A DNA stretch of 8,018 nucleotides from J088 sp003695505 [NCBI: Candidatus Dadabacteria bacterium] (lineage in GTDB: Bacteria; J088), in contig RFIY01000178.1 of assembly GCA_003695505.1 (NCBI GenBank), positions 1-8,018 on the forward strand, in the 5' to 3' direction. The position numbers were made by a program, and so were the translations under genes. Under the pieces are notes generated by a model. It was not told the origin of the DNA. It worked only from the letters and a program-made list of their open reading frames with translations, and made no database searches. Position 1 is the first letter of the stretch. The number at the start of each line of letters is the position of its first letter. Below, in pieces: positions 2,425 through 6,133 of this stretch.

Positions 2425-3834
2425 ATGCTGCAGACCGCACCGTTGTCGACACCGCACGTCGAAGTCGATTCCAATCGTGCCCGCGAATTCACCAACGTGC
2501 GTCCATTTGAAGAAATCCCCGGACACCCCGGCTGGCCGGTTCTTGGGAATACCATCCCGATGATGGCGACGCCGGTGACCTTTCTGGAGAACTGGTACAA
2601 AAAATATGGCCCGATTTCGCGCACGCGGTCGGTGGGCGTCGATATCCTGCTGTTGCTCGGTCCGGAACTGAACCGCCTGATCCTGCTCGACCCCCACGAG
2701 GCCATCTCGAGCCGTCAGGGGCTCAGCTTCTACATGGATCCGTTCTTCAAGGACGGGCTCGTGCTGCTCGACTTCGACGAGCATAAACTGCATCGCGGGA
2801 TCATGATGTCGGCCTTCCGCAAGGAGCGGCTGGCGGAATACCTGAACCTGATGAACCCGGTCATCGACGACCATACCGATCGCTGGATGCAGACCCGCGG
2901 CGGCCGCCCTCTGGATCGCCGCACCTTCTACTTTTTCCCGAATTTCAAGCACATGGCGCTGCAGATCGCAACGCGTGTCTTTATGGGACATGAGCTGGAC
3001 GCCAACGGCGACAAGCTGATCAAGGCGTTTCAGGATGTCGTTGCCGCGAGCGTCGCCGTCGTGCGCAAGCCGATTCCTGGCACCGCGTACTACCGCGGCA
3101 TCAAGGCGCGTGAAATGCTCGAAGACTATTTTTACAGTCACATTCCCGAAAAACGCGCCAACCCGGGCCACGACCTGTTCAGCCAGCTCTGCATCGCGGA
3201 AGACGACGACGGCAACACCTTTACCGACGAGCAGATCGTCAACCACATGATCTTCCTGATGATGGCCGCGCACGATACGACGACGATGACGACGACCCGC
3301 GTCGTCTACCACCTCGCCAAGCATCTCGACTGGCAGGAAAAAGTTCGTCAGGAGTGCCGGGCGCTCGAAACGGATTTTCTGACACCGGATCATGTGATGG
3401 ACTTGCCGAACCTGGAGATGGTCATCAAGGAAGCGCTGCGCCTCTGTGCTCCGGTGCCGGGCCTGCCACGCAAGACGATCAAGGACCTCAACATCGGCGG
3501 CTACTTCGTACCGGCCGGCACGCAGGTCCAGGTCGACATGCGGCACACCCACTATATGGATGAGTACTGGGATGATCCACACGAATTTCGCCCGGAGCGC
3601 TACGCCGAAGGCGGCATCGAAAACAAGGCGCACCGCTACGCCTGGCTGCCGTTCGGCGGTGGTGCCCACAAATGCATCGGACGCCATTTCGGACTGTATC
3701 TGATTCGGGCCGTCGTACACCAGCTCACCCAGAAATATCGCTGGCATGTGCGTCCGGGTTACAAGATGCCGCTCAAGAACCCGGGGCTGCCGATGCCGGC
3801 GGACGGCTTTCCGGTGACGTTCGAGCGACTCTGA
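2425..3834 (+). CDS. Cytochrome P450 (soluble bacterial, CYP family not assigned)
   Basis: A haem-thiolate monooxygenase of 469 residues; inserts one oxygen atom into an organic substrate using electrons from a redox partner. Seen: proline-rich start of the fold (EIPGHPGWPVLGNTIP); I-helix oxygen-activation motif MMAAHDTTT with Asp284 and Thr285; K-helix ExxR (Glu336, Arg339, in KEALRL); meander region PHEFRPERY; haem loop FGGGAHKCIGRHFG with the axial Cys417. There is no N-terminal membrane anchor, so it is soluble. The overall pattern (I helix ending in repeated Thr, FGGGxHxCxG, LPxKTxKD-type block after ExxR) recalls the CYP51/CYP120/CYP26-like branch rather than camphor-type bacterial P450s; that is a resemblance only. 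Start: AGGAGG (2412-2417) is 7 bases before the ATG at 2425; the upstream in-frame ATG at 2398 lies before that ribosome site. No ferredoxin or reductase gene is in the window. An operator-like site shared with the FAD dehydrogenase suggests one pathway. Confidence 0.96.
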   Translation: MLQTAPLSTPHVEVDSNRAREFTNVRPFEEIPGHPGWPVLGNTIPMMATPVTFLENWYKKYGPISRTRSVGVDILLLLGPELNRLILLDPHEAISSRQGLSFYMDPFFKDGLVLLDFDEHKLHRGIMMSAFRKERLAEYLNLMNPVIDDHTDRWMQTRGGRPLDRRTFYFFPNFKHMALQIATRVFMGHELDANGDKLIKAFQDVVAASVAVVRKPIPGTAYYRGIKAREMLEDYFYSHIPEKRANPGHDLFSQLCIAEDDDGNTFTDEQIVNHMIFLMMAAHDTTTMTTTRVVYHLAKHLDWQEKVRQECRALETDFLTPDHVMDLPNLEMVIKEALRLCAPVPGLPRKTIKDLNIGGYFVPAGTQVQVDMRHTHYMDEYWDDPHEFRPERYAEGGIENKAHRYAWLPFGGGAHKCIGRHFGLYLIRAVVHQLTQKYRWHVRPGYKMPLKNPGLPMPADGFPVTFERL

Positions 3835-3924
3835 GCGGCCAGACCCGGATGATCACTTCACGCGGACCCCACCCGACATCAACAAGCAGGCGGGGGGGCC
3901 GCTGCTGATCGTCCGGGAAAACAT

Positions 3925-3943: not shown

Positions 3944-3946
3944 TGT

Positions 3947-3984
3947 GAAACCGAAGGCCGGCCGCCGCGCTGGCCTTCGGTTTC
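3947..3984. terminator. Strong hairpin, probable P450 transcript terminator
   Basis: Arms GAAACCGAAGGCC (3947-3959) and GGCCTTCGGTTTC (3972-3984) pair perfectly over 13 bp. The stem extends to 16 pairs with one G-U pair, leaving a six-base loop. The stem is GC-rich at the loop and ends in A/T on both sides, as in bidirectional terminators, but no real T-run follows on either strand. It may therefore stabilise the 3' end rather than terminate on its own. Confidence 0.55.
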
Positions 3985-4195
3985 GCACGGGCATCTGCCC
4001 CCCCGGAACAAAAGCGCGAACCAATCGCGCACGCAGCGTAGTCACAACTCACGACGCTCGTAACCAGACTCCGGCAACTGGAGAAAGGTCCGAAGCATCG
4101 ATGCCTCTTGACCGATCGTTTTTGCGTTGTTCAGAACACCGCCAGCGCCGTGACTCCAGCCCCCGCATGGCGTGCAGCGGTACGACCGGCGCATA

Positions 4196-4222
4196 TGTCA
4201 CAATAGTAGCCCGTGCATCGTC
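4196..4222 (+). promoter_or_regulatory. ECF41-type promoter of the sigma factor gene (autoregulation)
   Basis: TGTCACA (4196-4202), 16-base spacer, CGTC (4219-4222), ending 41 bases before the sigma factor ATG. From memory, TGTCACA (-35) and CGTC (-10) form the conserved promoter of ECF41 sigma factors, and the gene that follows is an ECF41 factor by its own motifs, so positive autoregulation is expected. A second copy of the motif precedes the next gene. Confidence 0.8.
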
Positions 4223-4263
4223 TGTTGTGTTGAATCACGTCGAATCGCGGAGTACTTTATCCG

Positions 4264-5145
4264 ATGACAACGACCGTCAAAGAGGACAGCGCAGAAAACA
4301 CATTTGTTTCCCGCCGAAAGAAGCTTTTCCTCATTGCCTACCGCATGACGGGTTCGATCTGTGACAGTGAAGACCTCGTCCAGGATGCGTGGCTACGCTG
4401 GCAACGCACAGGAGCCAGCCAGGCAAGAGATGCGGATCGTTACCTTACGCGAATCATTGTCAATCTTGCGCGTGACCACCTCGTGTCCGCGCGCCGCCAA
4501 CGTGAGCGCTACATCGGGACGTGGCTGCCAGAGCCACTGTTAGCGGAGCCTTCGCGAGCGGAAGAGGGATTGATTGAAGAAGAAGCTATCCGCTTCGCCT
4601 TGCTCCATATTTGTGAGGCGCTCACGCCGAATGAGCGCGCCGTATTCGTCCTTCGTGAGTGTCTCGAACTCGACTTTCGCACAATCGCTGCGTTACTCGC
4701 ACTCTCTCCGGCAAACTGCCGGAAACTCGCCCAGCGCAGCCGCGACAAGCTTCGCGCGCACCGAGAGATTGCTCCGAGGGATGCACCAGCGGATCTGTTA
4801 CTTGCATTTTCCGAAGCAGCACGCAGCGGCAATCCCGATGCTCTGATTCGTTTGCTTCGCGATGACGCGGTGTTGTTGAGTGACGGTGGAGGCAAGGCCC
4901 TCGCCGCCCTGCACCCTGTACGGTCGCCCCTCCCGATTGCCCGTTTTTTCTCCGCGACTGCCCGGGCACTGCGACCCGAAGACCTGCACCCAATCCTCGT
5001 CAATGGAGCTGCGGGACTCCTCGCTACGCCTACGAATCAGCCGTGCACCTGCCTGACAGCCACGATCGATCACCCTGGGCGAATCACCACGATCTATCTG
5101 TTACGCAATCCCGACAAAATTCACATACCGGGACACGGAATCTGA
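4264..5145 (+). CDS. ECF41-family RNA polymerase sigma factor with fused SnoaL-like regulatory domain
   Basis: Directs RNA polymerase to a small set of promoters. Group ECF41 lacks a classical anti-sigma factor; a C-terminal SnoaL-like (NTF2-fold) extension controls activity instead. Seen in 293 residues: sigma region 2 (about 14-80, with CDSEDLVQDAWLRW at 33-46 for core binding), the linker motif YIGTWLPEP (83-91), and sigma region 4 helix-turn-helix (about 105-165, LTPNERAVFVLRE and LSPANCRKLAQRSRDKLR). The extension (about 172-293) carries DGGGK (207-211) and NPDK (282-285). WLPEP, DGGGK and NPDK are the three signatures of the group, and length is normal, so the protein looks intact. Start: ATG at 4264 with a modest GGAG (4249-4252) 11 bases upstream; region 2 starts soon after, so no much later start is possible. 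Four leucines are coded by TTA (residues 93, 144, 179, 280), unlike the P450, which has none. The downstream cytochrome b gene carries the same promoter motif. Confidence 0.95.
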   Translation: MTTTVKEDSAENTFVSRRKKLFLIAYRMTGSICDSEDLVQDAWLRWQRTGASQARDADRYLTRIIVNLARDHLVSARRQRERYIGTWLPEPLLAEPSRAEEGLIEEEAIRFALLHICEALTPNERAVFVLRECLELDFRTIAALLALSPANCRKLAQRSRDKLRAHREIAPRDAPADLLLAFSEAARSGNPDALIRLLRDDAVLLSDGGGKALAALHPVRSPLPIARFFSATARALRPEDLHPILVNGAAGLLATPTNQPCTCLTATIDHPGRITTIYLLRNPDKIHIPGHGI

Positions 5146-5189
5146 ACCAACCTTGTGGCAATAGGCGTCGGCTCCTCGCTTACCGTCAT

Positions 5190-5237
5190 CTGCCTGCATC
5201 TCACTGCTATCCCTCCTGTAATCTGGGAGGCAGGCAG
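5190..5237. repeat. Inverted repeat between sigma gene and cytochrome b gene
   Basis: CTGCCTGC (5190-5197) is perfectly complementary to GCAGGCAG (5230-5237). Between them CCTCC (5212-5216) can pair with GGAGG (5226-5230). The two pairings compete for base 5230, so they are alternatives or slightly offset stems. It lies 44 bases after the sigma stop and just before the second ECF promoter. It may end the sigma transcript, though no T-run follows. Confidence 0.4.
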
Positions 5238-5260
5238 CGACACCGTGCGCCTGCAGCGCC

Positions 5261-5288
5261 TGTCACAATCAGTGACGGTTATATCGTC
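5261..5288 (+). promoter_or_regulatory. ECF41-type promoter of the cytochrome b-like gene
   Basis: TGTCACA (5261-5267), 17-base spacer, CGTC (5285-5288), ending 38 bases before the ATG of the next gene. Both elements are identical to those upstream of the sigma gene, and the distance to the start codon is nearly the same. It is therefore the likely target promoter of the sigma factor just upstream. The -35 element also forms an inverted repeat GTCAC-N5-GTGAC (5262-5276) with the spacer, which might allow a second regulator. Confidence 0.78.
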
Positions 5289-5326
5289 ATACAGGGTATG
5301 AATCCCGCTTACCCGGAGGGACCATC

Positions 5327-6133
5327 ATGCCCACTGCTTATCCAGTCCGATTCTTACACCGTCACCTCAAAAGGATGCGCGGGCTACAGGCAGCCACAGG
5401 CCTGTACCTGGCCGGCTTTCTGTTTCTCCATCTGAGCACGACACTTGCGGCATTTGCCGGTCCGCGCCGACAGCAAGAGTGGCTGGATCTCGTTCGCGAA
5501 ATCTATCAGAGTCCCATGCAGGAATTGGCTTTACTAACTATGCTGTTCCTGCATGCTGTCAGCGGAGTGTTGATACACCGTCTCCGACCGGGCCCGGTGA
5601 AACGGCGCACTCCGATTCCGTTGCACCGGCGCGCTGGCCGGGGGCTGGCTGCCGTTGTTTTTTTGCATGTACTTGGCACGCGGGCACCCGTCTGGTTTGG
5701 TGGAATCGCCGTCGATGTTTCGTACGTCTCCTACAGCCTGGAACGGTATGGCGCTTTCTTCTACCCATACTACACCCTGCTGTTCACCGCAGGTATCGTT
5801 CACCTCGCTGGTTCCTTGCCGCGCGCGCTGAAACGGCTGTGGCCGCGCGCGTGGGCACGCCTCCCTGTTCCGGCCCCGTCCTTCCTGCCTCGACTCGCTG
5901 TGACAGCCGCCACCATCGGATTCCTCGCGTTGGCCTCGGCAGGTGGTCTGTGGTACCCGGTTGCTCGTGTGAACTACCCCCGGTACGACGCCTGGTTCGC
6001 GTCCTGGTTTGGCACCGCTCCACGGAGCGAACAACTCCGCCCGGTCACACCCGCAGGTAGAACTGCTCTCCCATTCCGAACACGTCGTCGAACGCGACCG
6101 GGTCGGCGCCTGCCGGTCGCACGACACCGTTGA
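5327..6133 (+). CDS. Five-helix membrane protein, dihaem cytochrome b of succinate dehydrogenase / fumarate reductase type (putative)
   Basis: Seen: 268 residues with five hydrophobic segments, about 22-44, 64-86, 103-126, 145-166 and 186-209. Helices I-IV each carry a histidine in a similar setting (FLHLST His35, FLHAVSG His76, FLHVLG His114, IVHLAG His159). Spacings of 41, 38 and 45 closely follow the four haem-ligand histidines of dihaem SdhC/FrdC cytochromes such as Bacillus SdhC. Known of that family: it anchors flavoprotein and iron-sulfur subunits and passes electrons between quinone and the active site. Inferred here: a b-type haem membrane electron carrier; no catalytic subunits adjoin it. 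Start: GGAGG (5315-5319) is 7 bases before the ATG. An ECF41-type promoter (5261-5288) links it to the sigma gene. The last 24 or so residues (from Arg245) are arginine-rich and run antisense over the end of the DUF2804 gene, so the natural stop may have been lost. One TTA leucine codon is present. Alternative: a small membrane protein unrelated to SdhC with chance histidines. Confidence 0.7.
   Translation: MPTAYPVRFLHRHLKRMRGLQAATGLYLAGFLFLHLSTTLAAFAGPRRQQEWLDLVREIYQSPMQELALLTMLFLHAVSGVLIHRLRPGPVKRRTPIPLHRRAGRGLAAVVFLHVLGTRAPVWFGGIAVDVSYVSYSLERYGAFFYPYYTLLFTAGIVHLAGSLPRALKRLWPRAWARLPVPAPSFLPRLAVTAATIGFLALASAGGLWYPVARVNYPRYDAWFASWFGTAPRSEQLRPVTPAGRTALPFRTRRRTRPGRRLPVARHR

Follow-up and report, generated by a model that had tools for sequence, protein, structure and literature searches.

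A stand-alone SdhC-like cytochrome b as a predicted output of an ECF41 sigma factor

Introduction

ECF41 sigma factors are recognized by a C-terminal extension, a WLPEP linker motif, and a promoter in which TGTCACA and CGTC are separated by 16 ± 1 nt (Wecke et al., 2012, PMC3426412). That survey, on parts of which we draw here and below, counted about 400 such proteins in 10 phyla; the inducing conditions were not known to that study. Its Table 4 relates the promoter to neighboring genes for carboxymuconolactone decarboxylases, oxidoreductases, or epimerases (COE genes). The motif lies at the COE gene in 97 of the 107 loci in which that gene comes first; in sigma-first loci, it precedes the sigma gene in 14 of 53 and the COE gene in 24 of 53. 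A COE neighbor is not required, as 34% of the genes are orphans and 6% are ungrouped. In loci studied in the laboratory, the neighboring COE gene was the sole target detected besides the sigma gene (PMC3426412). For the S. meliloti ECF41 factor RpoE9, the excerpts used here list only a carboxymuconolactone decarboxylase target (PMC6180224). A title cited in PMC8999054 ties an Azospirillum ECF41 factor to motility and lateral flagella, and COE proteins are therefore not the sole reported output.

The locus described here resembles the ECF41-COE modules of B. licheniformis (ecf41-ydfG), R. sphaeroides (ecf41-RSP_0606), and S. meliloti (rpoE9-SMb20029) in having a C-terminal extension fused to the sigma factor, no anti-sigma gene, a TGTCACA-N16(±1)-CGTC promoter, and a neighboring gene as the target, which in our case is predicted. 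It differs in that this target would be a membrane SdhC-like cytochrome rather than a carboxymuconolactone decarboxylase, an oxidoreductase of the listed Pfam families, or an epimerase. A cytochrome b-like gene controlled by ECF sigma factors has a precedent in S. meliloti SMc01022, a target of RpoE1/RpoE3; however, the material consulted places these factors in ECF26, with another promoter (PMC6180224).

The cytochrome itself is related to two described groups. With SdhC/FrdC b558 (TIGR02046) it shares a membrane core and four aligned histidines, but its gene stands alone and it forms a separate branch of the tree. Like the ferredoxin-type class IIIb adenylate cyclases, it carries an SdhC-like four-histidine membrane module outside complex II; their anchors are fused to ferredoxin and cyclase domains, whereas the protein described here is separate and encoded beside a sigma factor. 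A cluster of 30 SdhC-like cyclase anchors with four haem-binding histidines is reported in the part of eLife 13098 used here, which shows that signalling proteins can contain modules of this type.

We found no ECF41-cytochrome pair in the ECF41 literature searched; the 2021 reclassification (gkaa1229), PMC8404707, and the supplements fall outside that scope and may list such contexts. The ECF41 group, its promoter, and its tendency to have a single target are established; a membrane cytochrome b did not appear as a target in the literature searched.

Results

An ECF41 sigma factor gene and two matching promoters

The window, by which we mean the whole stretch of DNA analyzed, is an entire contig of 8018 bases from a draft genome of 2,829,385 bases (395 contigs, 84.5% complete). 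The genes of interest, at 4264-5145 and 5327-6133, are both on the + strand; they are flanked by a P450 gene, whose end is at 3834, and a convergent DUF2804 gene. The first gene and the two promoters are as follows:

4196..4222, + strand: ECF41-type promoter of the sigma gene (TGTCACA at 4196-4202, N16, CGTC at 4219-4222), exact, 41 nt to the ATG
4264..5145, + strand: intact ECF41 sigma factor P0001, 293 aa, with a C-terminal SnoaL-like extension, identified by its domains, SigJ match, and motifs
5261..5288, + strand: ECF41-type promoter of the cytochrome gene (TGTCACA at 5261-5267, N17, CGTC at 5285-5288), exact, 38 nt to the ATG

Judged from its sequence, P0001 is an ECF41-type sigma factor. 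Sigma regions 2 and 4 are present, as Sigma70_r2 scores 41.1 bits (cut-off 24) and Sigma70_r4_2 scores 35.5 bits (cut-off 25.7). Near full-length matches were obtained to TIGR02957 (SigX4; 1.1e-78) and PRK09636/SigJ (6e-78), at 264 and 262 bits below the curated cut-offs of 323 and 271; the ECF41 group is not defined by these models. Among the linked sigma factors described below, that of locus L015 passes both cut-offs (360.6 and 340.8 bits) and those of L061 and L096 do not. Residues 13-286 of P0001 match the SigJ structure 5xe7 (E 9.8e-37), which places the C-terminal extension of about 100 aa. Pfam SnoaL_2 gave no match in P0001 and weak matches, below the cut-off, in the L015 and L096 sigma factors. 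P0001 carries the WLPEP linker, plus SDGGG and NPDK in the extension, and the initial annotation was thus right to call the gene an intact ECF41 member.

The immediate neighbors of the sigma gene are the P450, cytochrome, and DUF2804 genes, with no COE gene among them. Upstream, on the opposite strand, are an SDR gene at ~2 kb and a gene for a FAD_binding_2 protein at ~3.5 kb; FAD_binding_2 is a domain on the oxidoreductase list in the survey (PMC3426412). A hairpin at 3945-3988, read from the sequence and with a 5-pair core in the terminator listing, lies 3′ of the P450 gene and is likely to be a terminator that separates this gene from the sigma gene. Because of this terminator-like structure near 3960, the sigma gene seems to have its own transcription unit. 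The + strand showed no terminator-like site between the sigma and cytochrome genes, and transcripts from the first promoter may therefore run on and supplement those from the second. The RNA of this gap folds somewhat better than its own shuffles (z -2.15). The GC content of the two-gene island is 0.58-0.60 and that of the outer parts about 0.64, a difference too small to judge horizontal transfer.

Both copies of TGTCACA-N16/17-CGTC, together with their gaps of 41 and 38 bases to the next genes, lie exactly where they had been annotated. A motif scan of all 8018 bases found no further exact copy. With spacers of 14 to 19 nt allowed, the window contains two matches against 0.04 expected, and two matches arose in 1 of 200 shuffles. 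When the 150 nt upstream were shuffled 2000 times, the sigma promoter was equalled once and the cytochrome promoter never. Across the draft genome, the same pattern matches 11 times and its reverse three times. Only three of the 11 matches have a spacer of 15-17 nt: the two in the window and one within a long open frame on contig 6. We take this frame to be the flagellar gene flgH. Outside coding frames, the 2.83 Mb draft genome thus has no exact copy with a spacer of 15-17 nt other than the two window motifs. On the shuffle counts, the genome-wide count, and the positions before both genes, we rejected the possibility that the two motifs arose by chance.

In two of six promoters, those of the window cytochrome gene and of locus L084, the -35 element lies inside a small inverted repeat (GTCAC-N5-GTGAC at 5262-5276 of the window; GTCACA-TTT-TGTGAC at 4278-4264 on the - strand of L084). 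These repeats may be the site of a second regulator or may be due to chance.

The second gene encodes a stand-alone relative of SdhC

The second gene starts 181 bases after the sigma gene. Its features are as follows:

5315-5319, + strand: ribosome site GGAGG of the cytochrome gene
5327..6133, + strand: P0002, 268 aa, a stand-alone SdhC/FrdC-type, predicted dihaem, cytochrome b-like membrane protein, assigned by profile homology to SdhC
5429..5431, + strand: codon of His35 in helix 1, predicted haem ligand; aligns with invariant His39 of SdhC L075 and is invariant in 14 of 14 family members
5552..5554, + strand: codon of His76 in helix 2, predicted haem ligand; aligns with invariant His80 of L075
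5666..5668, + strand: codon of His114 in helix 3, predicted haem ligand; aligns with invariant His129 of L075 and is invariant in 14 of 14
5801..5803, + strand: codon of His159 in helix 4, predicted haem ligand; aligns with invariant His175 of L075 and is present in 13 of 14, the exception being L084, which is cut short

P0002 scores 2.4e-4 (20.8 bits) against TIGR02046 (sdhC_b558), far below the cut-off of 96; the linked cytochromes score 1.6e-6 (L061), 3.1e-7 (L015), and 4.6e-5 (L096). No Pfam family matched P0002 at E ≤ 0.01, a threshold at which eight of the 14 family members match Sdh_cyt. One annotated family member is named a hypothetical protein.

When a profile of the 14-member family was aligned with six SdhC proteins by hhalign, the homology was scored at 97.8% (E 7e-13), and His35, His76, His114, and His159 of P0002 were each aligned with a histidine shared by all six SdhC proteins. 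With only the four linked sequences in the profile, the score was 97.2%. A search of the PDB with the family profile returned, at E ≤ 1, only the SdhC chains 6lum_C (1.2e-8) and 9lay_C (0.0018). Two structure predictions were poor (pLDDT 52.7 and 49.6) and too weak to serve as proof; with the second, low-confidence model, chain C of Wolinella fumarate reductase ranked first and second (E 0.035 and 0.14), in agreement with the profile results, and no match reached 0.001.

The profile comparison and the four aligned histidines thus support the annotation of the gene next to the sigma factor as dihaem cytochrome b-like, and we infer its haem content from these positions. Pairing of the ligands as 35/114 and 76/159 would presumably follow the scheme of B. 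subtilis SdhC. The helix-2 histidine is kept in the window, L015, L061, and L084; it is glutamine in L096 and in nine unlinked aligned members. Since the L096 cytochrome lacks this residue, dihaem binding would not be constant across the linked members.

The last ~46 residues of P0002 (5993-6133) are rich in arginine and have no counterpart in the 13 aligned relatives. At its end, the gene shares 89 bases with the 3′ end of the convergent DUF2804 gene, whose stop lies at 6045.

The cytochrome differs from succinate dehydrogenase anchors

The window genome has a separate sdhC-sdhA-sdhB locus on contig 231, in which its own SdhC is encoded beside SdhA and SdhB; P0002 is therefore a stand-alone relative of the dihaem anchor and not the anchor. 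No sdhA or sdhB gene was found in any of the five linked stretches, the window included; one of them, the G288 contig, ends with the cytochrome gene. A 100/99 branch of the tree splits the stand-alone family from SdhC. In addition, all 13 uncut stand-alone members examined carry an FxPYY motif, which is missing from the six distinct SdhC proteins and from the three cyclase anchors examined. The reference SdhC set consisted of these six proteins, five from other genomes matched by the A1 cytochrome profile and one the window genome's own; SdhA adjoins all six. Given the separate locus, the tree split, and the lack of sdhA or sdhB nearby, P0002 was rejected as the genome's succinate dehydrogenase anchor.

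True anchors make up most of what the A1 profile detects. Among 386 genomes, 35 had a match, including the window's and G288, and SdhA adjoins the match in 27 of the 28 kept loci beyond the pair (L033-L060).

Another explanation is that, under stress, the cytochrome takes the place of SdhC in succinate dehydrogenase, which would alter complex II. Such a role would suit a protein that is clearly homologous to SdhC and has all four histidines, and the genome's SdhA and SdhB could serve both anchors. We consider this improbable, as the stretches of the five linked genes hold no sdhA or sdhB and both the 100/99 branch and the distribution of FxPYY set the stand-alone family apart.

The gene pair and its promoter recur in four further genomes

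The initial annotation had staked its proposal on relatives keeping both the promoter and the gene pair. Such relatives exist: an ECF41 gene adjoins a homologous cytochrome gene in G288 (locus L015), G386 (L061), G757 (L084), and G1348 (L096), in both gene orders.

A search with the sigma factor gave E ≤ 1e-20 in 12 of 386 diverse genomes, the window's own included. The second-best match outside the window was G288 (L015), where the cytochrome gene starts 24 nt after the sigma stop codon. Its product is 36% identical to P0002 over 156 aa (6e-22); the contig ends within the gene. An exact N16 promoter lies 25 nt before the L015 sigma gene (equalled in none of 2000 shuffles). We found no separate motif in the 24-nt gap before the L015 cytochrome gene; the second gene of the window has its own copy.

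A genome_contigs scan with the window and L015 cytochromes gave 74 pattern matches, of which one was a relative, L061. On this gammaproteobacterial contig (JAPUIA010000014.1), the cytochrome gene comes first and the sigma gene overlaps its end. A promoter with two mismatches (cGTCACg-N16-CGTC) lies 31 nt before the cytochrome gene and was equalled by 26 of 2000 shuffles.

Searches with growing profiles yielded the remaining two pairs: G757 (L084) was one of nine matching genomes among 293, and G1348 (L096) one of 13 among 398. In L096, an exact N16 promoter (equalled by two of 2000 shuffles) lies 30 nt before the cytochrome gene, which overlaps the ECF41 gene. In L084, the cytochrome gene again precedes the sigma gene, with a one-mismatch promoter 44 nt upstream (equalled by 16 of 2000 shuffles). 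Here the pair is broken, as the 3′ part of the cytochrome gene and the 5′ part of the ECF41 gene have been lost in a natural deletion at 3840-3860. The L084 cytochrome frame ends just past the helix-3 histidine, and the sigma frame starts at about residue 64 of its relatives. The WLPEP linker is present in the sigma factors of the window, L015, L061, and L084, and reads WLPAP in L096.

Thus, an ECF41-type promoter lies 25-44 nt before the first gene in all five pairs, with three exact copies, one with one mismatch, and one with two. As a control, we examined nine of the 12 unlinked short relatives, those other than G918, G1384, and Bernardetia: none of the nine has an exact promoter, and the best, L094, has two mismatches.

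Since the same pair occurs in four other bacteria, a new kind of output for the ECF41 family, a cytochrome, looks real on the sequence comparisons. The annotated notion of an ECF41 factor with a non-canonical cytochrome target gains support from this recurrence of pair and promoter. We rejected the view that the recurrence reflects one block inherited by near relatives, based on the low identity of the cytochromes to P0002 (25-37%), the two gene orders, and the tree.

An ordinary autoregulated ECF41 sigma gene might also be followed by an unrelated cytochrome gene by happenstance. About a third of ECF41 genes are orphans in Table 4 of the survey, as far as we drew on it (PMC3426412), and 17 of 18 ECF41-like loci outside the window have no such cytochrome within ~1.5 kb. 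Yet the cytochrome gene is preceded by a second exact promoter, and the pair recurs four times, twice with overlapping genes (L061 and L096) and once with a gap of 24 nt (L015). Fortuitous adjacency is therefore very hard to credit.

Frequency and history of the pairing

An ECF41 gene adjoins five of the 17 short stand-alone family members with a visible neighborhood, the window included; for L094, L095, L097, and L098, this neighborhood covers only ~1.5 kb per side. As the other 12 have no ECF41 neighbor, the cytochrome does not need one. From the side of the sigma factor, a cytochrome lies within ~1.5 kb in one of 18 ECF41-like loci outside the window, namely L015, whose own cytochrome was part of the profile used for the scan; eight of the 18 have no WLPEP-like motif and may not be ECF41.

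On the cytochrome tree, the linked state needs two changes, also when judged by the starred branches alone. The ECF41-cytochrome link was accordingly made twice, or made once and lost in part. The L096 cytochrome groups among unlinked Pseudomonadota proteins that likewise have glutamine for the helix-2 histidine. The place of P0002 is unsure because it has the longest branch, and whether the linked sigma factors form one clade is a question for which the sigma tree is too weak. The cytochrome tree was built without L033 and L036, which are the same genes as L074 and L075, and leaves out the near-copy L095, G918 (L077/L085), Bernardetia (L108), and the long or fused proteins of G812, G1204, G1224, G1354, and Paraburkholderia. 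We regard the pairing as rare and as either old or repeated; it is no accident confined to a single genome.

Several other collections did not contain the pair. Direct searches with P0002 found no relative in plasmids, 58 other genomes, or viral contigs, nor among 65 pattern matches in genome_contigs. The A1 and A2 cytochrome profiles found nothing in viral contigs, and the L015 and L061 cytochromes nothing in plasmids. The L096 cytochrome matched three plasmid records, none with an ECF41 gene within ~4 kb.

Nine loci (L086-L090, L094, L097, L098, and L071) encode stand-alone SdhC-like proteins of ~200 aa from Pseudomonadota, with FxPYY and with glutamine for the helix-2 histidine. Near these, we found no sdhA, sdhB, or ECF41 gene in the stretches covered.

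SdhC-like modules beside or within regulatory proteins

On the Bernardetia plasmid NZ_CP147018.1 (L108, 3208-4519), the gene for a Crp/Fnr family regulator is followed after 97 nt by that for a stand-alone SdhC-like protein, a further case in which a member of this cytochrome family is paired with a transcription regulator. Four further proteins (L101, L102, L104, and L105) fuse an SdhC-like domain to a 2Fe-2S ferredoxin and a guanylate or adenylate cyclase; Pfam was run on the first three, and L105 was assigned by likeness.

These fusions bear on whether the cytochrome might act upstream of the sigma factor. Possibly, it is a membrane sensor of redox or quinone state that sets the activity of the sigma factor made with it through the C-terminal extension, with the promoters merely balancing the two. 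SdhC-type four-histidine modules serve as the membrane part of signalling enzymes in the part of eLife 13098 that we used, the fusions L101, L102, and L104 came from the same profile search as the linked cytochromes, and the gene overlaps in L061 and L096 fit a fixed stoichiometry. Against this, the sections of Wecke et al. at hand describe no signalling role of the neighboring COE proteins and consider a second protein unlikely, and the B. licheniformis sigma factor worked in B. subtilis, which has no ECF41 of its own (PMC3426412). P0002 also has no sizeable cytoplasmic domain, its arginine-rich tail occurs in the window protein only among the 14 aligned, and promoters before the cytochrome gene fit an output. 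A sensory function is thus unlikely, if less so than replacement of SdhC. If true, it would connect a transmembrane redox switch directly to a sigma factor and would give ECF41 an input.

Discussion

We think that the window probably encodes an ECF41 module of two genes that amplifies itself and has a stand-alone membrane cytochrome b as its output. The cytochrome stands in place of the known ECF41 targets, and the best reading is therefore a small autoregulated module with a membrane output. Since the cytochrome loci follow the promoter pattern of COE loci, the simplest reading of the cytochrome is likewise as the output.

In the proposed mechanism, the sigma factor would be held down by its own C-terminal extension, as is known for the group. 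A signal would relieve this hold and the sigma factor would then guide RNA polymerase to TGTCACA-N16/17-CGTC. More sigma factor and the cytochrome would be made as a result, such that sigma factor and output amplify together. The cytochrome would fill the slot held in other ECF41 loci by the COE genes. From its SdhC ancestry, it would most likely shuttle electrons between the quinone pool and a partner during redox stress. A link of the sigma factor's C-terminal domain to quinone or respiratory redox state, suggested in the initial annotation, is a guess.

For the ECF41 family, a recurrent cytochrome b output would suggest that electron transfer in the membrane is among the processes that these sigma factors serve. 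It would also narrow the candidate signals to quinone redox state, oxygen, nitric oxide, and oxidants. For the stand-alone SdhC-like family, the pair provides a regulatory setting.
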